Shown: one piece after another, positions 7,479 through 49,315 of the stretch
Layout of the letters: each line of letters opens with the position of its first letter
Position numbering within the stretch: the stretch's first letter is position 1
DNA from: Campylobacterota bacterium
Lineage (GTDB): Bacteria > Campylobacterota > Campylobacteria > Campylobacterales > Sulfurimonadaceae
Direction: 5' to 3'
Length of the DNA stretch: 49,858 nt
Assembly (NCBI GenBank): GCA_013607665.1
Contig: VCAX01000003.1
Location: forward strand, 1 to 49,858
Notes under the pieces: generated by a model
Told to the model about the DNA's origin: nothing
Seen by the model: the letters and a program-made list of their open reading frames with translations, nothing else
The model's database searches: none
Program-made: the position numbers and the translations under genes

Positions 7479-8225
7479 ATGAAAAAGCTTTTCACCCTCT
7501 TATTTTTGAGTTTTTCCCTGCTTCACGCAGGAGTTGTCAATGTTGCACTTGCAGCCAATGTGAGTTATGCCATTGATGAGCTCAAAACTCTCTTTGCTAA
7601 AAAATATCCTGATACAGAAGTAAAGATTACTCTTGGCGGCAGTGGAAAGCTCACAGCACAGATAAATCATGGCGCACCCTATGATATTTTCATGTCTGCC
7701 AATATGCGCTACCCAAATGCCCTTTACAAACAAAATCTCGCTCTCACGCAGCCAAAAATCTATACAAAAGGCGCACTCGCCATCCTCTCACTCCATCCAC
7801 ACGACTTTACAAAAGGCATCACTCTTATCGCAGAAAAAAGTATCCGCCGCATCGCCATTGCAAACCCAAGAACAGCCCCTTATGGCAAAGCCAGCGTCGA
7901 AGCACTGCAAAATGCCAAACTTTATGAAAAGGTGAAAAAGAAGTTTATCTATGGTGAGTCTATCGCGCAAACTGTCACGTATGCTGTAACGGCAGCAGAT
8001 ATCGGTTTTATTGCAAAATCAGCACTTTACTCCCCAAAAATGCAACACTTCAAAGAAGGGAGAAACTGGATAACAGTAGATGAAAAACTCTACAGACCAA
8101 TTGCACAGGGCATTGTTCTCTTAAAACAGGCAAAAGACAATCCTGATGCGAAACATTTTTATGACTTTATCCTCAGCCATGAAGCAAAAATGATATTTAA
8201 AAAATATGGATACAATACCTTATGA
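7479..8225 (+). CDS. modA: Molybdate ABC transporter, periplasmic binding protein
   Basis: 248 aa from the ATG at 7479. The track start at 7389 adds 30 residues without signal character, whereas MKKLFTLLFLSFSLLHAG is a proper signal peptide and AGGT precedes it. LGGSGKLTAQINHGAPYDIFMSAN (about 45-70) and PRTAPYGKASVEAL (about 135) are ModA features that bind the oxyanion. Mature protein delivers molybdate or tungstate to ModBC. First gene of a four-gene operon whose members overlap by a few bases. Molybdate would serve molybdenum enzymes encoded outside this window. Confidence 0.93.
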   Translation: MKKLFTLLFLSFSLLHAGVVNVALAANVSYAIDELKTLFAKKYPDTEVKITLGGSGKLTAQINHGAPYDIFMSANMRYPNALYKQNLALTQPKIYTKGALAILSLHPHDFTKGITLIAEKSIRRIAIANPRTAPYGKASVEALQNAKLYEKVKKKFIYGESIAQTVTYAVTAADIGFIAKSALYSPKMQHFKEGRNWITVDEKLYRPIAQGIVLLKQAKDNPDAKHFYDFILSHEAKMIFKKYGYNTL

Positions 8226-8620
8226 ATAAGATATCCGCAGCTGTTGTAAACATACAAAATGTACAAAACCTCACACAGGTTACTTTTACTACAGCTACGC
8301 ATGAACTCAAAATGATAGGGCTTGAACTTCCTCAGCAGATAGAGGCAAATACAAAGGTCACACTTACATGTAAAGCGACCAATATAGCTATCGCAAAAAC
8401 AAGTGACATGCTGCTGAGCTTTAGCAATCAACTCCATGTTACTGTAAAAAAGATCGAAATGGGTGCACTGCTCTGCGCTTTGGAACTCTCTTTTGAGTCT
8501 ATTACACTTGAGTCCATCATCACAGCCGATTCTGCCAAGCGTATGAACTTACAGCTTGGAGAGAGTGTCGTTGCACTTATTAAATCAAGTGACCTCTCTA
8601 TTGCCGAGGTACTTTCATGA
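8222..8620 (+). CDS. TOBE (molybdopterin-binding-like) domain protein
   Basis: 132 aa, no DNA-binding helix-turn-helix and no signal peptide. The second half ([15 protein letters not shown] to [25 protein letters not shown]) matches the TOBE/Mop fold that binds molybdate; the first half is a more degraded repeat of the same plan. It overlaps modA by 4 nt and modB by 4 nt. Possible roles are molybdate storage or a ModE-like sensor without the DNA-binding part; neither is shown. Confidence 0.85.
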
Positions 8621-9288
8621 ATTTTGAACCTTTTGTTCTCTCTTTTAAGCTTGCAGCACTCACGGCACTCTTACTTTTTTGTATCGCTCTGCCGCTTGCA
8701 TGGTACCTCTCACAGACAAGATCACGAGCAAAGCCTTTTTTAGAAGCACTCACTGCCCTGCCTATTGTGCTGCCACCTTCAGTTTTGGGGTTTTACCTGC
8801 TTTGGGCACTCTCCTATAACTCCCCTTTAGGCGCTTTTTTTGAAGACACCTTTGGCGTGAAACTTGTCTTTTCATTTACAGGTCTCGTTGTGGCGAGCTG
8901 TTTTTACTCTCTGCCATTTATGGTGCAGCCATTACAAAACGGATTTGAGAGCCTGAGTAAAAGCATGCTTGAGGCGAGCTACATTGCAGGAAAGAGTAAA
9001 TTGACAACACTTTTTAAAGTAGCCCTGCCAAATATGAAACCCTCCCTCATTACAGCACTCATCATTACCTTTGCCCATACAGTCGGCGAATTTGGTGTAG
9101 TGCTCATGGTAGGAGGGAGCATTCCGGGAGAGACAAAAGTGGCTTCTGTGGCAATCTATGAGATGGTTGAGATCATGGATTATAAAAGTGCGCATATCTA
9201 CTCTGCTATCTTACTTGTTATCTCTTTTGCGGTCCTGCTGAGCGTTTACATCTTCAATGCCAGACAGACAAGAAGGTTTGGACTATGA
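8617..9288 (+). CDS. modB: Molybdate ABC transporter, permease
   Basis: 223 aa, about five membrane helices. [19 protein letters not shown] (about 45-64) and the cytoplasmic EAA loop around [20 protein letters not shown] (about 120-140), followed by [20 protein letters not shown], are typical of ModB. Forms the inner-membrane channel with ModC. Overlaps both neighbours by 4 nt. Confidence 0.96.
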
Positions 9289-10136
9289 TAGATATCAATG
9301 TCACAAAAGAGCTCCATGGAGCAGACGGTAATATGCAGCTTGCAGTCAACCTGCGTATTGCGCAAGGCGAGTTCGTCGCCCTCAGCGGGAAAAGCGGCAG
9401 TGGAAAGACAACGCTGCTGCGTATTCTAGCAGGTCTTGAGGAAGCAGAGGGTACAATATCTGTCGATACAGAGCGTTGGCTGCGTGAGAAGCATGCCCTG
9501 CCACCGCAAAAAAGAGAGATCGGTTTTGTCTTTCAAGACTATGCGCTCTTTGAAAATATGACCATCGAACAAAACCTGCTCTTTGTTGCCAATGACAAAG
9601 CCCTTGCCAAAGAGCTTTTGGAACTTACAGAACTGACAGCACTCAAGAACAGACACCCGCATACACTCAGTGGCGGACAGAAACAGCGTGTGAGTATCTG
9701 CCGTGCCCTGATGCGACGACCAAAAATACTCCTGCTAGATGAACCGCTCTCAGCACTCGATGCCACAATGCGCACAAAACTGCAAAACGAACTGCTCACA
9801 CTCCACAAAACATTTCAGACAACGACAATCATGGTCAGCCATGATCCAAGTGAGATCTATCGTCTCGCCTCTCGCGTTATTGTGCTAGAAAATGGCACTC
9901 TAAGCAATGACAGCAAACCTACCGATGTACTGCTTAAACAACAGGGAAGCCAAAAGTTTACATTTCAAGGAGAACTTTTAGAGATAAAAAAGGTCGATGT
10001 TATCTTCATAGCCATTGTCGCCATCGGACAGCAACTTGTTGAAGTAGTGCTCTCTGCCGGTGAAGCAACTAAGCTACATGTAGGTGATAAAATTACACTC
10101 AGTACAAAAGCCTTTCACCCTACAATCACAAACTAG
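9285..10136 (+). CDS. modC: Molybdate ABC transporter, ATP-binding protein
   Basis: 283 aa. Walker [10 protein letters not shown] (about 33-41), Q-loop in [10 protein letters not shown], signature [15 protein letters not shown] (about 127-141), Walker [13 protein letters not shown] and switch His in MVSHDPSE. The C-terminus from about 225 looks like a single short TOBE-like region, so the protein is shorter than the E. coli ModC. Converges with addA; the two stop codons overlap. Confidence 0.95.
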
Positions 10137-12850
10137 ACTTGAACTAATCGAATTTCATCTTCTAAAAGATAGCACAAATACCCCTTTGCCGGAGTCCCTG
10201 TTATTGTCTTGACTGCATGCATATAACCTCGCACCTGTTTTAAGTGCTCTTCATGCGCATGCAGACCACTTTTATAGTCAATAATAATCTGCGTTTTATC
10301 CTCTTTTTGTATGAAAAGATCAAGATAGAAAAGATTTTTTTTGTAGCGCAGTGCCTTCTCTTTGTAATATTTGGCACCCTCTAAAAGCGCAATAAATTCC
10401 TGATGTTGCAGTAGGCTCTCTACACGATTTACAATAGCATCTATCTCTTTTTCTTCAAGTAAAAACCCATATTTATTAAGCAGCATATCTTTTGCCGGCT
10501 CTATTGCTTCAACCTCAAATGCTGGGAGCATCTCTAACATATAGTGCATTCCAAGCCCAAAGTTTATAGCGTTTAAATCTTCCTCTTCCTGACGCTCTAA
10601 TGCCAGCAAATTACTTTGTGTTCCATAGTAGAGGTTTTCATAGCGAAGCTTTTTTCTTTTTTCTTCTATTCGCTCTTGACTCTTGCTAACTTGCAAGACT
10701 CCATAACTACCACTTGCAAGCTCTAAAATATCAAATTGCGACTTCTCGCTCTTTTTAATCACAAAGAGGTGCTCTTTTGCGCGCGTAAAAGCGACATAGA
10801 GTGCATTGAGACTATCCTCACGCACAAGCGCCTCCTCTTTTGCAAGCGCATTGGCATAGGCAGTATCGATCGCATCACGTCCTGAAGTACGCAGATAGAT
10901 ATTTTGCAGCGCAATTCCCTCATATTCATAGATAACAGGGCTGCGTGAGGCAGGTGCACGTTTAAGTCTGTCCATCACAATGACATGTTTATACTCCAAA
11001 CCTTTTGATTTATGCACAGTCAGCACACGCACACCGCTCAAGTCTGAAGCCGCCGCACTCACATCGAGCCGTTCATACTCAAAAATAAGCGCATCGATAT
11101 CGCTGTATTTTTGCACAGCATCCAAAAAGCGGATGAGATGAAAATCATCGCTAAAGAGATTATACTTCTCAATGCAGCGTTTAATGATGTCAAAAAGTGC
11201 CACTTGATTTATATTCACACGCTCTATTGCCGTACTCTCTCTGCCAATGAGCGCAAAAAAGTTGTGTCGGTAGATATCTTCGCCAAAATAGAGATATTTC
11301 AGATACTCAAGCAGTGCCTGCACACTGCGTTGATTGATAAGCTTTGTTGTTGTCTCGGTCACGACCTCTATCGCTCTGCTCTGCAGAAGATTTTTAATCT
11401 CTTCTCCATCGCCGTTTGTTGCGCACAATACTGCAATGTCATCAAGCTTCGCACCAAGTTCAATAAGATGCTCTATCTGCGCAAGCGTTGCTTCAAGCAC
11501 TGCATCATTTTCTATAACTTCTACATAGCCGCCATCAGCCTCTTTGCGTGTAAGCTGTGGTGTGTAGTTTGCAATTTTATCCCTAAAGACACGGTTAACA
11601 AACTCTATGACCTCTTTTTGTGAGCGGTAGTTTGTCAGTAGTTTTTTTACCTCAGTGCCATTCTCACGTGCCACCTCGCCAAAGAGTGCTGAGACACCAC
11701 CGCGAAAGCGATAGATTGACTGCTTCACATCCCCGACAAAGAAGAAACTTCCCGCTTCAAAAACACCCTGCCCTGAGACAATCTCACCAATGAGCGGTTG
11801 TAAGATTTTATACTGCATAATGCTCGTATCCTGAAACTCATCAAGCAGCATATGCTCAATGGTTGCATCGAGTCGAAAGTAGAGAAATTCACTGTCATCC
11901 AAACGGTGCAGGATTGTATAGACAAGCTGCGTGACATCAGAAAAGCCTAATTCACGCTCCTCTTTATAGAGCGCTTTTTTTGCTTTTTTATAGAGTGCTA
12001 CAAGCGCACGCAAGGCATAAAAGAAGTTCTGCTCTTTGGCACGGTTGTAGTCTCGAACAGCCTCTTGAATTTTCGTAAGTGCATCATCCATCTCAGGCAC
12101 ATAGCACTTTTTAAAGACCCAGTACTCCAAAGACTCTTTGCCAATCCAGCTCTTTGTGCGCAATGCTTCAAAGTTTTCTGCCTGCACTGCCTTTTGCAGT
12201 GTTGGCGATGCCCCTTTACAATTTGCAACTATATTTTGAAGTTGCGTGAGTGCTGAAAGTGCTGCATCCTCATACTGCGTGAGAGGAGATTGTTTAAAAT
12301 TAATCCCGCGCAGCTCCTCCTCTTTTTCATAAAAAGCATCGAGCAGCTGAAAAATGTCACTCACACGTTTTTTAGATTCCAGCGAGAGTGAAACAAGGAG
12401 ATCTTTTTTATTTGTGACACTCACCTCCTGTAAAAATCGCAGCAGCAGTTTTTGTTCATGTTGGGAAGCGAATGTTGTAAAATCAGGCATCAAAGAGGCA
12501 TGGAGCGAGAATTTTCTCAGTATCTGCGTAAAAAAACTGTCTATGGTCATGATTTTTGTATTTGCCGCTAAAAACTCATGCAACACTTTTTCTCTGCGTG
12601 CAAGTATCTCTTGGCGTGTGAGTCCGCACTCTTTTACTATCTCATCGAGCTCTCCACGCGACTCCAACTGCTCTAAAGTCTCTACAATTCGCTCACTCAT
12701 CTCAGCAGCCGCTTTGTTTGTAAAGGTAAGGGCTAGGATTTTTGTTGCATCTGCACCGCTAAAGAGCAAAGAGAGATAACGCACAACGAGCATAAAGGTC
12801 TTTCCGCTTCCCGCACTCGCTTCATAGGCCAAATTTCTTACAAATGCCAT
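10133..12850 (-). CDS. addA: AddA-type helicase-nuclease (RecB-like)
   Basis: About 905 aa. UvrD-family helicase motifs run in order: Walker A YEASAGSGKTF near the start, LALTFTNKAAAEM, DEFQDTS near 335, VHKSKGLEYKHVIV near 620 and YVAFTRAKEHLFV near 690. A PD-(D/E)XK nuclease follows with IIIDYKSG near 880. With AddB it processes double-strand ends for RecA loading. The track start at 12892 is 14 codons too early: ATG at 12850 has GGGAGGG upstream and shares one base with the addB TAA, which implies coupled synthesis. Confidence 0.92.
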   Translation of the reverse strand: MAFVRNLAYEASAGSGKTFMLVVRYLSLLFSGADATKILALTFTNKAAAEMSERIVETLEQLESRGELDEIVKECGLTRQEILARREKVLHEFLAANTKIMTIDSFFTQILRKFSLHASLMPDFTTFASQHEQKLLLRFLQEVSVTNKKDLLVSLSLESKKRVSDIFQLLDAFYEKEEELRGINFKQSPLTQYEDAALSALTQLQNIVANCKGASPTLQKAVQAENFEALRTKSWIGKESLEYWVFKKCYVPEMDDALTKIQEAVRDYNRAKEQNFFYALRALVALYKKAKKALYKEERELGFSDVTQLVYTILHRLDDSEFLYFRLDATIEHMLLDEFQDTSIMQYKILQPLIGEIVSGQGVFEAGSFFFVGDVKQSIYRFRGGVSALFGEVARENGTEVKKLLTNYRSQKEVIEFVNRVFRDKIANYTPQLTRKEADGGYVEVIENDAVLEATLAQIEHLIELGAKLDDIAVLCATNGDGEEIKNLLQSRAIEVVTETTTKLINQRSVQALLEYLKYLYFGEDIYRHNFFALIGRESTAIERVNINQVALFDIIKRCIEKYNLFSDDFHLIRFLDAVQKYSDIDALIFEYERLDVSAAASDLSGVRVLTVHKSKGLEYKHVIVMDRLKRAPASRSPVIYEYEGIALQNIYLRTSGRDAIDTAYANALAKEEALVREDSLNALYVAFTRAKEHLFVIKKSEKSQFDILELASGSYGVLQVSKSQERIEEKRKKLRYENLYYGTQSNLLALERQEEEDLNAINFGLGMHYMLEMLPAFEVEAIEPAKDMLLNKYGFLLEEKEIDAIVNRVESLLQHQEFIALLEGAKYYKEKALRYKKNLFYLDLFIQKEDKTQIIIDYKSGLHAHEEHLKQVRGYMHAVKTITGTPAKGYLCYLLEDEIRLVQV

Positions 12851-38506: not shown

Positions 38507-41107
38507 TTAGAATAAGTTAGCATTTTCATCGACCCATTTAAGGTATTCGATGATGTTTTTCGTCTCTTCTTCACTCATATGTTGATTAGGCATTTTTAGA
38601 TTAAAGTAATCAATCATACTTTTAACATATGGATCTTTATATTTAGATGCTGGGTTCATGATAAAATCTTTTACCCATTTTTCTGCATTTTCATGTCTCA
38701 TAAGAACACCTGTCAAGTCAGGACCAGATGACACTTTACCAATTACGTGACATCCACCACATCCACCTTCACCAAATGCTCTCTCACCAGCTGCTGCTGC
38801 AGGAGATTGCGGCGTTGCAACTTTTCTTACAAGAAGATCTTTCGCACGAATACCAACATCCGCAGTTTTAACCATGTACTGCCAGATCATATTTTCAAAC
38901 AGAACAGCTTTTTCATAATCACCGGCTTTTACAGCTGCATCAGATTTTTTCTTCTGCTCAGGAATTTTTCCATACTGATCAAGGGCATCTTCAACCAATG
39001 CTTTTACTGTTGGGTATTTTTCATAGTGATTCTCTTTTAAGAATTTCACTACCGATTGAATAACTGCATCTGTTGCATTATTTACTGCAACTGTTTTGTC
39101 ATATTCAGCTTTTAACTCAGCTTTTGACATTTTTTTCATTTTCAGTTTTTGTGCACTTACATATTTTTTATTAGGGTCTTTAACCATAAGGTAACCCATC
39201 ATCTCTAAGTGAAGTGCAGAACAGAACTCTGTACAGTAGTAAGGAAATACTCCCTCTATATCTGCTTTAAATTTCAACTCAGCAGTCTCACCTGGCTCGA
39301 GTGATGCATGAATATCGAAATTATCAACTGTAAAACCATGTGTCTCATCTTGTGCACGTTCAAGATTTGTCAAATAAATAGTTACAATATCACCTTTATT
39401 TACTGTAATTCTCTCAGGATTGATGTGAGATCTTACAAGTGTTGCATAAACAGTTACTTTGTTCCCTTTTCTAACGATTCTCTCTTGACCTGCTAAAGTT
39501 TTACCAACATGCGGTTTACCGGTTTTTGTATTTGTACCCATTTTATAGCGAACTGCAGGGTGAAGCTTACTTGCACGAATAGCTACTGCCTGGTGTGGCT
39601 CACCTAATGGTAACGGCATATCAACAAGGAGATCCATTTTTTTACCGCTTACATCGATCAACTGGTGATTTTGCGGATGTAATGGCCCAACAGGATCAAA
39701 TCTGTCAATTGCGAGTTTGTTTAAAGAGATGATATATTTCCCTTGTGGGTCAGCAGATTTTCCTTCCATTCCACAAAGGTGTCCAACGTTATAGTGAACA
39801 TTCTCTTTATCTAAAACTTTGAGTGTTTTATAGTTCCATTTTACGATTTGAGAATCAACGTAAAGAGAAGTATAAATTTCACCGTCAACATTTGAGTACT
39901 GGTTATGCAGTGGCCCAAGTCCCAACTCCACTTGACCATGAAGTGATTTTTTCATATCAAGAATTGGAATTCCATACGGATCTTTCCCAGCATACTCTTT
40001 GTTTTTAATAAGCTTTTTGATTTTACTCCATTTATAAACAGAAGCGTGTGTATCTAGCTTACCACAAACTGTAATATATTCACCATTTGGTGAAACATCA
40101 ACACCATGCGGTGATTTTGGCTCTGGAATTAAAAAAAGACAGTTATTTTTTACTGCTACGTCCATTGGAATCACTTTAATTCCATTGACCATTTTATAAT
40201 TCTTTTTATTTTTAGCGAGCTCAGCTAATTTTTTCCAGTTATATACATGCAAGAAGTCAGTATCATTTCTTGACATACCTGCTTCAAACGGAGGCATACC
40301 AACTTCGATACCACCTGTATACATTTCTGAGTTAAATGAGTTTGTAAATCCCCAACCATAAGATGCACCTTTACCTGCATCACTTAAATCCTGCATATAT
40401 GGAGGCAGTTCAAGCACAAAAGAGTCTTTTTCTTTAATGCGCCCTTTTTTACTGTCAAATTTCCATAGAGTTACACCACCACGATATGTCTCTTTGTACT
40501 CTTCGATTGGATGGTAGTTATTATCAAACGGGGCAGCATATTGACATGCTTCAATGATGTACTCAGAGTTAGGTGTAAAGAATGAACCACCATGTTCTGA
40601 TTTGAAAACAGGATTGACAACAATCTGTTTTGTCTCAAAGTCATGCAGGTCGATAATAGCAATACGAGGATTGGCTTTATCATTGATAGCTAACCATTTT
40701 CCGTCATATTTCCCATCTTTTTCAGATAGACCAGGGTGGTGCGTATCTCCCCAGTTTATTTCACGTCCGCGAATGTTACCCTGACGTAAAATCTTTTTAG
40801 AATCTTCATCGTATCCATATCCTTGCCATGGCTCTGGCGTAAATACAGCGATATACTTTAAAATTCTCATAGTTGGAACACCGTAAACAATTATCTGTCC
40901 ACTTTGTCCACCAGAACTAAATACAATAAACTCATCTCTTCCACCTGATGGTGTATAAGTTTTTGCAGCACGAATGACATCGTTTTCCGTAAGTCCCCTT
41001 GCTTTCATCACTTTTTGCAGTTCTCCCCCAATAGCAGCAGATGCAACTGTTGCCGCTAGAGACGTCCCAACAATAAGTGAAGTCAGCTTACTTAAATGAC
41101 TAGACAT
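38507..41107 (-). CDS. nosZ: Nitrous oxide reductase, clade II with C-terminal cytochrome c domain
   Basis: 866 aa from ATG 41107, which has AAGGAG six bases upstream; the track start 41122 has none. Reduces N2O to N2 in the periplasm. The signal peptide (LTSLIVGTSLAATVASA) has no twin arginine, so Sec export as in clade II. The propeller supplies CuZ ligands, for example DTHHPG and HGVDVSPNGEY. The CuA domain has CTEFCSALHLEMMGY. A fused haem c domain at the C-terminus has CGGCHV. It is 180 nt upstream of nosB and ends with its own hairpin. Confidence 0.98.
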   Translation of the reverse strand: MSSHLSKLTSLIVGTSLAATVASAAIGGELQKVMKARGLTENDVIRAAKTYTPSGGRDEFIVFSSGGQSGQIIVYGVPTMRILKYIAVFTPEPWQGYGYDEDSKKILRQGNIRGREINWGDTHHPGLSEKDGKYDGKWLAINDKANPRIAIIDLHDFETKQIVVNPVFKSEHGGSFFTPNSEYIIEACQYAAPFDNNYHPIEEYKETYRGGVTLWKFDSKKGRIKEKDSFVLELPPYMQDLSDAGKGASYGWGFTNSFNSEMYTGGIEVGMPPFEAGMSRNDTDFLHVYNWKKLAELAKNKKNYKMVNGIKVIPMDVAVKNNCLFLIPEPKSPHGVDVSPNGEYITVCGKLDTHASVYKWSKIKKLIKNKEYAGKDPYGIPILDMKKSLHGQVELGLGPLHNQYSNVDGEIYTSLYVDSQIVKWNYKTLKVLDKENVHYNVGHLCGMEGKSADPQGKYIISLNKLAIDRFDPVGPLHPQNHQLIDVSGKKMDLLVDMPLPLGEPHQAVAIRASKLHPAVRYKMGTNTKTGKPHVGKTLAGQERIVRKGNKVTVYATLVRSHINPERITVNKGDIVTIYLTNLERAQDETHGFTVDNFDIHASLEPGETAELKFKADIEGVFPYYCTEFCSALHLEMMGYLMVKDPNKKYVSAQKLKMKKMSKAELKAEYDKTVAVNNATDAVIQSVVKFLKENHYEKYPTVKALVEDALDQYGKIPEQKKKSDAAVKAGDYEKAVLFENMIWQYMVKTADVGIRAKDLLVRKVATPQSPAAAAGERAFGEGGCGGCHVIGKVSSGPDLTGVLMRHENAEKWVKDFIMNPASKYKDPYVKSMIDYFNLKMPNQHMSEEETKNIIEYLKWVDENANLF

Positions 41108-41155
41108 TTTATTCTCCTTCATTTCATTTTGAGAATTTTCTCAAATGATAGGAAA

Positions 41156-41197
41156 ATAATAATACACAAATCGCGTGAAAAATTTGACTCAGGTCAA
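41156..41197 (-). promoter_or_regulatory. Crp/Fnr-type box and -10 of nosZ
   Basis: TTGAC-CTGA-GTCAA on the minus strand (41197-41184), extended to 8-bp perfect arms (AATTTGAC), then 22 nt, then TATTAT (41161-41156). The right half overlaps the stop codon of the upstream sensor gene. Confidence 0.8.
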
Positions 41198-42144
41198 ATT
41201 AGTAAACTAATATCTTTTTTTAAGCTTTTGAGTTTATTTGAAGAGAGGCTGAGTTCATCAAGTGTTTCAATAAGAACATCCTCTTTTTTCAAGAGTTCTT
41301 TGTCGATATTTTCACTCGTTTGCATCGCTGCAATAAGCTCTATCAGGTTTTCAATCTTCTCTTCAACATCTTCTAAGGCATCAACACTGCCCTGGATGGA
41401 TTTTTCTGCATATGTGATTGACTCATTTATGTTTTGAACTAAGAAGTTAAAATCATTGGCAGCCTCAGAAACATCTTGAACATTTCCTTCGGTTTCAATT
41501 GGCTGCACGCCCTTAACCGTTGATTTTTTGATAATACTTTTGGATGTTTTTAAAAACTTTTGAATAAATCCCAACAGACCTTTCAACTGTGTAAAAAGGT
41601 AAACAAGGAGCAAAAGCAGTGTCACAAAGAGAGTTATCTGTATTATTCTGTTTTTCTTTTTACTCTTGTCAAAATACTGTTTATGCATTGTTATGAGTCT
41701 GTCAAATGCAACAATTAAGTCTAGATTTGCATTATAAATTTGATTGACAAGCTTTTGTAATATAATATTCGTATAGCCGTTATGTACCCGGCTCACATCC
41801 CTGAACTTCTGTACAAGCAGGTAGAAACGGTTCCATAAAACAATAATTTTTTGTATTTGATCGCGGATATCGGCATTGTCCAAATCTTCTAATATCTCTT
41901 CTTTTTTATTGACATTTGCAACAAATGATTTAATAGACGCATCAAGTTGCTGCGTTGATGCATGTTTATTGTTGTAGATATAAAAAATATTTTTGGATAT
42001 CTCCTGCGTAAATGCCTTTTGCTCATTGATTGCCTTTAGGAGTGTTAGACTGGCATCATTTTCTTCTGCAATATGTTTTGAATAGAGTGCCAAGATGACA
42101 GAGAGTACAAATATAAGCGCACTGATAATTTTTATTTTATTCAT
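41194..42144 (-). CDS. Two-helix membrane sensor, PilJ/NarX-like, no output domain
   Basis: 316 aa. Helix 1 at about 5-22, a helical periplasmic region (about 23-165) with ALTLLKAINEQKAFTQEISKNIFYI-type pattern like the nitrate-sensing PilJ/NarX N-terminal domain, helix 2 at about 170-190, then a cytoplasmic coiled coil (about 235-315). No kinase, GGDEF or methyl-accepting signalling tip is present. Overlaps the regulator gene by 8 nt, so the two are coupled. Ligand unknown; nitrate or another N-oxide is a guess. The family call is tentative. Confidence 0.6.
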   Translation of the reverse strand: MNKIKIISALIFVLSVILALYSKHIAEENDASLTLLKAINEQKAFTQEISKNIFYIYNNKHASTQQLDASIKSFVANVNKKEEILEDLDNADIRDQIQKIIVLWNRFYLLVQKFRDVSRVHNGYTNIILQKLVNQIYNANLDLIVAFDRLITMHKQYFDKSKKKNRIIQITLFVTLLLLLVYLFTQLKGLLGFIQKFLKTSKSIIKKSTVKGVQPIETEGNVQDVSEAANDFNFLVQNINESITYAEKSIQGSVDALEDVEEKIENLIELIAAMQTSENIDKELLKKEDVLIETLDELSLSSNKLKSLKKDISLLI

Positions 42145-42805
42145 CTACCTTGTCCTTGTAAATTTCTTCTAATGCCTCTGCATCCAAAACTTCAACTTTT
42201 CCATGTATTATAGCAATAATATTATTGCGTTTGAGTCTGTTTAGTACACGAGAAAGCGTTGCAGGCTGTATATGCAGCATCAAAGAGATATCATGACGTT
42301 TGAGTTTGTTAAACATCGCAAGATCCTCACGCAGCATCATACTCACCTTTGAAACTGCGTCAAAAAGAAACTCTCTGTTTATCAGTGACTGCATCTGCAG
42401 AGATCTCTCTAAGAGTGCTGCAGTAAATTGATGACACAAAATATGTTGGTCCAAAAACAGTTCTTTGAATTTTTTATAATTTATTTTCAGGACTTGGGAA
42501 TCTTCAACAAAAGATATATTTGAAAAAGAGCGCAGCGTGAACGCTTCTGTACTTGAAATCTCTGAGAGCATAGAGTTTTCATAAATGTAGTAGAGAAAAA
42601 TCTCATTATCATGTTTATCAAGTTTATAGGCCTTGGCCAAGCCTTCTACCAAAAAACAGAGTTCTGATGTCTCATCTCTTTCATAGTAAAGAATATACTC
42701 TTTTTCATACTGTTGCACAGTTGCCAAAGAAGCAAGTTTTTCAAGCTGATCTGCAGTGAGACTTTGGAAAAATGTGTGTTTCACGATAATCTCTTTTACA
42801 GACAC
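42137..42805 (-). CDS. Crp/Fnr-family transcription regulator, Nss-like
   Basis: 222 aa starting with GTG (AGG six bases upstream). N-terminal cyclic-nucleotide-like barrel (about 15-115), dimer helix, C-terminal helix-turn-helix with KRHDISLMLHIQPATLSRVLNRLKR (about 167-192). Only two Cys are present (in SELCFL and HILCHQ), so it has no Fnr-type Fe-S cluster. In the recognition helix the Fnr Glu is replaced by Ala (PATLSR). Wolinella uses Nss regulators for nitrate, NO and N2O; this may be one. Four matching boxes lie around it. Confidence 0.9.
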   Translation of the reverse strand: MSVKEIIVKHTFFQSLTADQLEKLASLATVQQYEKEYILYYERDETSELCFLVEGLAKAYKLDKHDNEIFLYYIYENSMLSEISSTEAFTLRSFSNISFVEDSQVLKINYKKFKELFLDQHILCHQFTAALLERSLQMQSLINREFLFDAVSKVSMMLREDLAMFNKLKRHDISLMLHIQPATLSRVLNRLKRNNIIAIIHGKVEVLDAEALEEIYKDKVDE

Positions 42806-42812
42806 ATCAAAC

Positions 42813-43259
42813 CTATTTCATACTTTTGTATGCACATTTCTCTTTAGTGATATCAAAACGAAACAGTGTTCTTTTTGTTTTCGCACTTTGATAAAGATAG
42901 GAAATATTGATACCTGATTCCAAAAATCTCTGTGACGACTGACAGACACCTTGTGTCACAACTTTTTGCATACGGGTATGGTCTTCTTTTATAATGGCTT
43001 CATCACTCTTAGCGCCGGTATTTATACTAAACGTATAAATTAAAGTAGCGTCTTTATTTGTAATAGATAAGAGTGTTGTATATTTGTCAATTCTTTGGGG
43101 AAGTGTTTTAGAAAGCTCTTTTGCTGCTAAAGAAGCAACTAAAACCTTTTGTTTTTGCAGTTGTTCTTTTGGAAGCTCTTGTGCCTGTATCTGCGGCTCT
43201 TTCGCAGAGACAGACAGAGCAAGGAGTAATAAAGCACATTGTATAAAAAACTTTTTCAT
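42813..43259 (-). CDS. Secreted protein of unknown function, first gene of the regulator operon
   Basis: 148 aa. Signal peptide MKKFFIQCALLLLALSVSA, then a Gln/Leu-rich segment and a small domain with two Cys (GVCQSS and KCAYKS) that could pair. No family recognised. GGAGAAAAG precedes the ATG. It is 7 nt upstream of the regulator gene and shares its Crp/Fnr-type promoter, so it may belong to the signal path. Confidence 0.8.
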   Translation of the reverse strand: MKKFFIQCALLLLALSVSAKEPQIQAQELPKEQLQKQKVLVASLAAKELSKTLPQRIDKYTTLLSITNKDATLIYTFSINTGAKSDEAIIKEDHTRMQKVVTQGVCQSSQRFLESGINISYLYQSAKTKRTLFRFDITKEKCAYKSMK

Positions 43260-48100: not shown

Positions 48101-49315
48101 ATGGCACGAATTACAACACCACTGACCGATACAAAAATCAAAACCTCAAAAGCAAAAGAAAAAGACTACAAGTTATCTGATGGTGGTGGCTTATATCTCT
48201 TAGTCACTAAAGCAGGAGGTAAACATTGGAAACTCAAATATCGTTTTAACAACAAAGAAAAAAAACTATCTTTAGGGGCTTATCCAAGTATATCTTTATC
48301 AAAAGCAAGAGAGCTAAGAGAACATTATAAGTCTCAAATTGCTACAAACATTGACCCTAATGAAGTTCTCAAAAGTCAAAAAACCACTAAAGAACAAGAA
48401 GAAATCAAAAATCAAAATACATTTCAAAAAATTGCCTTAAAGAGATTAGCTCAAATTGAATCAGACATTAGTGAAAGCCACTATAAAAGAAGCTACAATG
48501 GTTTAGTTAATGATGTATTTCCTATAATTGGGAATAAGCCTATCGATAATGTAGTCGCAGAAGATATTATCTATATACTCCAAGTTATGATGAAACGAGG
48601 TGTAAGAAATAGTGCAAAACAGGTTTATCATGCTATTAGCAAAACATTTAAATGGGCTGTCGCAAATGCAAAAGCCAAAAGAAATCCAGCAGCCGATATT
48701 GAAGTAAGTGAGATAATAGGTAAATCAAATGAAAAACATTATCCAACTATTACAGATGATATGGGGATCAGGAATCTACTAATTTCAATAAATGAATATA
48801 CCGGTGAGTATAGTACAAGACAAGCTCTAAAAATGATGGCATATACATTTGTAAGAACTATAAATATTCGCTATTTAGAGTGGAAAGAAATTGACTTTGA
48901 AACAAAACTTTGGACAATACCAGAGCATAAAATGAAAGACAGAAAAGAATTTATTGTACCCCTTACAAATACTGTAATAAACCTACTAAAAGATATGAAA
49001 CTTTATTCAGGTACAGCTAAATATGTCTTTCCAAGTGTTAAAAGTCAAACAACTCCAATGTCTGATGGAGCCTTACTAGGTGCAGTACGACGAATGGGAT
49101 ATTCAAAAAATGAGTTCACACCTCATGGTTTTAGAGCAATGTTCTCAACTATAGCGCATCAAAAAAGTAAGTTTAACTTTGATGTCATAGAAACCCAACT
49201 AGCACATAGTGTCGGTAACTCTGTATCAAAAGCCTACAATAGAGCTAAATATCTTGATGAGAGAGTGGAACTGATGCAATGGTGGAGTGATTATCTTGAT
49301 AATATTCAACAATAA
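48101..49315 (+). CDS. P4-type tyrosine-recombinase integrase
   Basis: 404 aa. N-terminal arm-binding DUF4102 domain: ITTPLTDTKIKTSK and LSDGGGLYLLV, then LSLGAYPSISLSKAREL. Core-binding domain about 105-205. Catalytic residues: Arg in TFVRTINIRYLEW, His-Arg in PHGFRAMFST, His in QLAHSVGN and the nucleophile in KAYNRAKY. GGGAG lies six bases before the ATG. Such integrases insert islands at tRNA 3' ends; tRNA-Ser is 192 nt upstream. Confidence 0.93.
   Translation: MARITTPLTDTKIKTSKAKEKDYKLSDGGGLYLLVTKAGGKHWKLKYRFNNKEKKLSLGAYPSISLSKARELREHYKSQIATNIDPNEVLKSQKTTKEQEEIKNQNTFQKIALKRLAQIESDISESHYKRSYNGLVNDVFPIIGNKPIDNVVAEDIIYILQVMMKRGVRNSAKQVYHAISKTFKWAVANAKAKRNPAADIEVSEIIGKSNEKHYPTITDDMGIRNLLISINEYTGEYSTRQALKMMAYTFVRTINIRYLEWKEIDFETKLWTIPEHKMKDRKEFIVPLTNTVINLLKDMKLYSGTAKYVFPSVKSQTTPMSDGALLGAVRRMGYSKNEFTPHGFRAMFSTIAHQKSKFNFDVIETQLAHSVGNSVSKAYNRAKYLDERVELMQWWSDYLDNIQQ

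Follow-up and report, generated by a model that had tools for sequence, protein, structure and literature searches.

An output-less PilJ-type receptor paired with a Crp-family regulator beside nosZ and nap in Campylobacteria, a candidate route for nitrogen-oxide signals

Introduction

How might a membrane sensor that has no output domain of its own pass on its signal? The question is raised by a locus of a Campylobacterota bacterium where, in a stretch of 49,858 nt that was analysed as a whole and is here called the window, the gene for such a receptor lies between a gene for a Crp-family regulator and nosZ. The nos cluster is on the minus strand, in the order thrS, infC, S148, Crp-family gene, receptor gene, nosZ and nos accessory genes, and this order is repeated in the close relatives, which are Sulfurimonas MAGs. 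The original prediction for this locus, made from the DNA letters alone, described the protein as an orphan sensor of the NarX/PilJ type that is coupled to the regulator. It has been reported that the Nss regulators (NssA, NssB and NssC of Wolinella succinogenes and NssR of Campylobacter jejuni) raise Nap, Nrf and Nos on nitrate, NO or N2O (PMC11539149, PMC6682613, PMC8139620), and that TTGA-N6-TCAA is the site used for regulators of the Nss/Dnr type (PMC11539149). How the Nss factors sense nitrate, NO and N2O has been stated not to be understood (PMC8139620; PMC11539149).

The features discussed below are, in window coordinates:

41194..42144, minus strand: receptor of the output-less, nosZ-linked type (ORF of 316 aa with ATG start; family profile, AlphaFold2 and Foldseek), with a PilJ/NarQ-type periplasmic four-helix sensor, two transmembrane (TM) helices, a HAMP-like connector and a cytoplasmic helical hairpin
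42016..42027, minus strand: codons of receptor residues 40–43 (N-E-Q-K), aligned to G-K-Q-R of nitrate-binding relatives (ORF position and alignment columns)
42137..42805, minus strand: Crp/Fnr-superfamily transcription regulator (cNMP_binding and HTH_Crp_2; ORF and domain matches), invariant partner of the receptor
42813..43259, minus strand: S148, an exported protein of 148 aa and the first gene product of the operon, with two invariant cysteines and a fold like that of the AspS pilotin and PA3611
41183..41198, no strand: predicted operator TTTGAC-TCAG-GTCAAA (palindrome of the TTGA-N6-TCAA class) upstream of nosZ
38507..41122, minus strand: nosZ, clade II cytochrome-c N2O reductase (ORF and search), predicted target

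Results

The receptor belongs with PilJ and NarQ sensors and ends after a cytoplasmic hairpin

Hydropathy peaks place TM1 at about residues 1–27 and TM2 at about residues 165–195 of the receptor. In the AlphaFold2 model (mean pLDDT 82.9), helices span residues 2–58, 65–85, 91–118 and 125–207 and correspond to TM1, a periplasmic four-helix bundle and TM2; a linker (208–222) and a hairpin (223–274/282–315) follow. Two membrane helices around a helical periplasmic region, as originally proposed, are confirmed. The cytoplasmic part had been described as a coiled coil without an output domain, and only the latter half of this description stands. Neither Pfam nor NCBIfam gave an output domain in the window receptor, and the relatives scanned likewise had no output of the kinase, MCP, cyclase or DNA-binding kind above cut-off. 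Instead of a plain coil, however, the model has a helix–connector–helix with a return helix, which would have HAMP-like geometry; Pfam gave no HAMP match, and we use the term HAMP-like for the geometry after TM2. The DHp and ATPase domains of the NarX/NarQ kinases are absent from the window receptor, which ends after the hairpin, and for the MCP signalling hairpin (PF00015) the best match of any member had an E-value of 0.31, with the ortholog L002 at 9.6 bits against a cut-off of 34.6. In the receptor alignment E288 is invariant in 97/97 sequences of all types and D289 is nearly so.

A search for the PilJ domain (PF13675) gave no match above cut-off for the window receptor by itself, and L002 reached 12.7 bits against a cut-off of 26.6, whereas nap-linked and tandem homologues exceed the cut-off with 52–92 bits (E-values of 6e-21 for the nap-linked homologues and 4e-26 for a tandem homologue). 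The proposed relationship to PilJ and NarX is borne out at the level of the family: a profile of 76 receptors matched the solved structures of PilJ (7zjr, 2e-9) and of the nitrate receptor McpN (6gcv, 4e-8), and the NarQ family model was matched by 17 receptor relatives. Foldseek with the receptor model returned four-helix ligand domains of MCPs and NarQ fragments, with weak E-values (best 0.087). By these profile comparisons the receptor family is homologous to the PilJ/McpN domains. The homologues fall into three architectures: the nosZ-linked one has about 316 aa, the nap-linked one about 336 aa, and the tandem one, in most cases with two PilJ repeats, about 455 aa.

A Crp-family gene accompanies the receptor throughout

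The receptor ORF and its 8-nt overlap with the regulator gene (42137–42144) are as originally described, and the protein encoded by the latter matches cNMP_binding (36.7 bits) and HTH_Crp_2 (38.1 bits), both above cut-off. Across Campylobacteria, a Crp-family gene lies directly upstream and on the same strand in 98/98 distinct receptor homologues sampled, with a gap between the two genes of −74 to +17 nt, most often −4 or −8, and the same arrangement was seen in every larger locus fetched. The claim that receptor and regulator are coupled passed both checks that the original prediction had named as able to refute it: the neighbourhood survey found no receptor without the regulator (98/98 paired), and the domain scans found no hidden output domain in the relatives scanned. 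The word orphan, on the other hand, does not suit a receptor that is partnered by the Crp gene and, in the nosZ-linked branch, by a third gene, for a periplasmic protein, as well. Distant Crp homologues without an adjacent receptor (24 rows sampled) form a solo clade apart from the partnered regulators (SH-aLRT 99), and the nosZ-linked branch is a single clade with a support of 100 in the Crp tree and in the receptor tree.

When NosZ or NapA is controlled for, distances between Crp proteins still correlate with those between receptors (partial r 0.66 and 0.91). Within the nap set, no part of the receptor correlates better (0.90) or has diverged less than the cytoplasmic hairpin. These correlations agree with receptor and regulator being physical partners, but such values can also be raised by shared operon linkage. 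Residue covariation, measured as mutual information with APC, was no better than shuffled pairing in the nosZ set (0.390 compared with 0.395); in the nap set one pair exceeded it (0.464 compared with 0.368), located in TM2 and uninterpretable. At the effective sample of about 30 per type, nothing usable was obtained at residue level and no interface was located. No natural fusion of the two genes was seen among the loci scanned.

The nitrate motif is kept beside nap and replaced beside nosZ

Nitrate binding in NarQ, NarX and McpN requires G-x-x-R at the dimer interface, and changes of the R, including to K, render NarX/NarQ insensitive to the ligand (PMC8199190). The N-box of nitrate-binding PilJ domains reads [IVL]-[ND]-x-A-G-x-Q-R-M-L-[ST]-Q, and nitrate binding was not seen for PilJ domains without it (PMC6381276). 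GxxR is kept in 46/46 nap-linked receptors, 30 of which have the strict N-box, and in 17/18 tandem receptors. In the nosZ-linked receptors GxxR and N-box were found in 0/33, with K in place of R in 33/33; the G is never present (N in 30 of 33), and K43 and Q47 are identical in all 33. Since the motif is intact in the nap-linked and tandem receptors, their ligand is probably nitrate, while the replaced box (N-x-Q-K) suggests that the nosZ-linked receptor answers something other, so that nitrate sensing of the NarX type is not borne out for this branch. Both receptor types occur in several genomes (for example G005, G012, G015, G020, G024, G025, G029 and G036) and are therefore likely to respond to different signals. 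The nosZ-linked receptor has possibly been retuned to N2O, whose appeal as a ligand comes from the target gene and from nothing else.

Within the genus, nosZ-type receptor and nosZ were both present in 17 cases, the receptor only in 0, nosZ only in 1 and neither in 19 (Fisher p=1.1e-9, in a test that near relatives inflate). In G019 the receptor pair and nosZ are on different contigs, and in G047 as well the pair lies away from a nosZ that is present; the tie is therefore not only positional. Motif type and target gene do not go together without exception, as in one genus (L114, G249) a GxxR-type pair precedes nosZ. Separately, genomes that already have the main nosZ were noticed to carry another, divergent nosZ of about 70% identity (G012:C1:1175364 and G036:C20:52762); G004 has only the divergent kind and is without a nosZ-type receptor.

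Operator and neighbouring genes

The TTGA-N6-TCAA site is present before nosZ in 17/17 loci (0.17 expected) and before napA in 31/40 (0.38 expected), and in 0/12 before thrS/infC. Over the whole window, however, the number of core sites does not exceed chance (4 found, 2.7 expected), and we therefore rejected its count there as evidence by itself. It had been noted that the operator lies over the receptor stop codon, and this is correct as to position, the palindrome at 41183–41198 covering the codon at 41194–41196. In 17 relatives, however, the site starts 10–73 nt downstream of the last base of the receptor gene, so the overlap is a local accident peculiar to the window genome and was rejected as a functional feature, the conserved part being the site before nosZ. 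About 68 nt separate the centre of the window site from the annotated start of nosZ, and a TATTAT hexamer, read by eye, has a spacing that would place the site at about −40, as expected of an activator. The window's own genome also has a napA (L174, G000:C54, at 4343) with a TTGACATATATCAA site at −98. No nap-type receptor pair was found in this genome, which is 88% complete, and the nosZ-type pair may therefore control nap too.

Pairs adjoin nap, nosZ, norCB-nirS (L107, L108), moaA or cytochrome-biogenesis genes (L039, L125); nap and nos neighbours were identified by search against reference proteins, and the other names are our reading of the protein sequences. In L107 and L108 the pair is directly upstream of the genes that read as norCB and nirS, and the module may therefore also serve nitrite/NO respiration. 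In many Sulfurimonas-like genomes (L034, L035 and similar) a membrane protein of 416–432 aa with an MCP-like N-terminus is encoded divergently from the nap-linked pair. Beside the pair in L119 there is a 776-aa MCP-like receptor (8066–10396) with an N-box-like motif of its own, LINLSGKQRMLSQ, which is likely to be a nitrate chemoreceptor. At the edge of the window, near ilvD, an ORF on the plus strand (48101–49315) reads as a tyrosine recombinase/integrase and possibly marks the boundary of a mobile element.

S148 accompanies the nosZ-type pair

Where the contig allowed a view, nearly all nosZ-type pairs have S148 in front of them; at nap-linked pairs it was not found in the loci fetched. The S148 model (pLDDT 88) has matches in PA3611 (1e-7) and in the pilotins of type II secretion (1e-6), and S148 distances correlate with those of both receptor and Crp. 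S148 is a possible periplasmic co-sensor.

Discussion

With a probability of about two in three, we suggest that the two genes form one unit, in which a membrane receptor passes its signal straight on to a Crp regulator, without phosphotransfer, and so drives nosZ or nap. A homodimeric receptor would detect a nitrogen-oxide signal with its PilJ/NarQ-type periplasmic four-helix sensor, and the signal would move TM2 and the HAMP-like connector and alter the cytoplasmic helical hairpin. In line with the direct contact or sequestration that the original prediction suggested, the hairpin would then act directly on the co-encoded Crp/Fnr regulator, be it by release, by holding or by a change of shape, and the regulator would bind TTGA-N6-TCAA, probably as an activator, switching on nosZ in the window and, in the case of the paralogous pair, nap. 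For the nosZ-linked branch the candidate signals would be N2O, a different N-oxide or one that reaches the receptor through S148. We favour direct action of the hairpin on Crp because of the pairing, the absence of any other output and the conservation of the hairpin with its invariant E288, although the invariant gene order and the correlated distances could also reflect co-inheritance of a fixed operon. A more specific version, in which the output-less receptor acts by contact on Crp and the nosZ branch is a duplicated nitrate pair that became a true N2O receptor through the change from G-x-x-R to N-x-Q-K, is in our estimate unlikely.

Other divisions of labour between the proteins have to be weighed against direct hand-off. 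Crp-family proteins usually bind an effector of their own, and the partnered regulators have a conserved effector domain, so the regulator might itself sense NO or redox state while the receptor merely adjusts the amount of regulator or anchors it at the membrane; NssB answers NO (PMC6682613). We regard this as distinctly unlikely, as the partnered clade carries a receptor that the sampled solo relatives do not have, most receptors have a recognised ligand motif, and the partnered regulators share no single cysteine set across types, with C93/C140 in the nap and tandem types and C124 in the nos type. For the nosZ branch alone, and as a variant of the direct hand-off, it is conceivable, if rather doubtful, that the receptor has no ligand of its own and relays a signal bound by S148, or the state of NosZ or copper reported by it. 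The presence of S148 before nosZ-type pairs, with none seen at nap-type pairs, its pilotin-like, protein-binding fold and its distance correlations would be in agreement with this, as would the proposed periplasmic protein and membrane relay DrpA/DrpB of Thermus (PMC6282519); but beyond the two cysteines S148 has no known ligand or metal motif, and distance correlation within one operon is weak evidence.

The sensor domain is common to chemoreceptors and NarQ, and two members gave weak, sub-threshold MCPsignal matches, which would be consistent with a helper receptor whose signal goes in trans to a chemotaxis array or to a histidine kinase and which has the Crp gene as mere operon company. This seems very improbable to us, given that an MCP hairpin or kinase domain was above cut-off in no member scanned and that company can hardly explain a 98/98 pairing across many genera and three architectures. 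That the nosZ-branch receptor is a paralogue in decay that has no function might be read from the loss of the nitrate motif and of the Pfam-level PilJ match, yet the reading frames are open, K43, Q47 and E288 do not vary and the presence of the receptor tracks nosZ, so that we give this notion hardly any credence.

The direct hand-off that we prefer can be set beside several known systems. The Nss proteins belong, like the window regulator, to the Crp/Fnr superfamily, come from the same bacterial class and have the TTGA-N6-TCAA site that is predicted for the window regulator, the likeness being one of site and setting; unlike the window Crp, the Nss regulators appear without mention of a membrane receptor partner in the papers describing them (PMC11539149, PMC6682613, PMC8139620). 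No published receptor partner of these regulators was found in the openly readable literature. Judged by site and setting, these are regulators of the Nss kind. With McpN and PilJ (PF13675) the receptor shares the periplasmic four-helix sensor, and its nap-linked relatives carry the N-box (PMC6381276), but the family is without the MCP signalling domain and the nosZ branch without the N-box. With NarX and NarQ it has in common the sensor fold, two TM helices and a HAMP-like connector; it differs in having neither kinase nor NarL partner, its output appearing to go to a Crp-type regulator instead. The nearest logic is that of DnrS/DnrT and DrpA/DrpB of Thermus, where DnrT, a Crp-type activator, is fed by separate sensors. 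DnrT activates nitrate respiration while itself ignoring nitrate and oxygen, and the sensor proteins feeding it include a membrane protein proposed to act on DnrT (PMC6282519). However, DnrS is of the GAF type while the window partner is PilJ-like with two TM helices, and DrpA/DrpB, the genes for which lie downstream of nar, are unrelated proteins from a different phylum (PMC6282519).

In sulfidic and marine environments N2O is consumed by Campylobacteria that have a clade II NosZ, and the invariant pair beside nap and nosZ provides a named candidate for each signal, with the nitrate motif intact in one and replaced in the other. If the direct hand-off is true, a kinase-free route from a periplasmic receptor to a Crp-type regulator would be added to those known; and if the nosZ-linked protein were a true N2O receptor acting by direct contact, this would be a new transmembrane signalling architecture.
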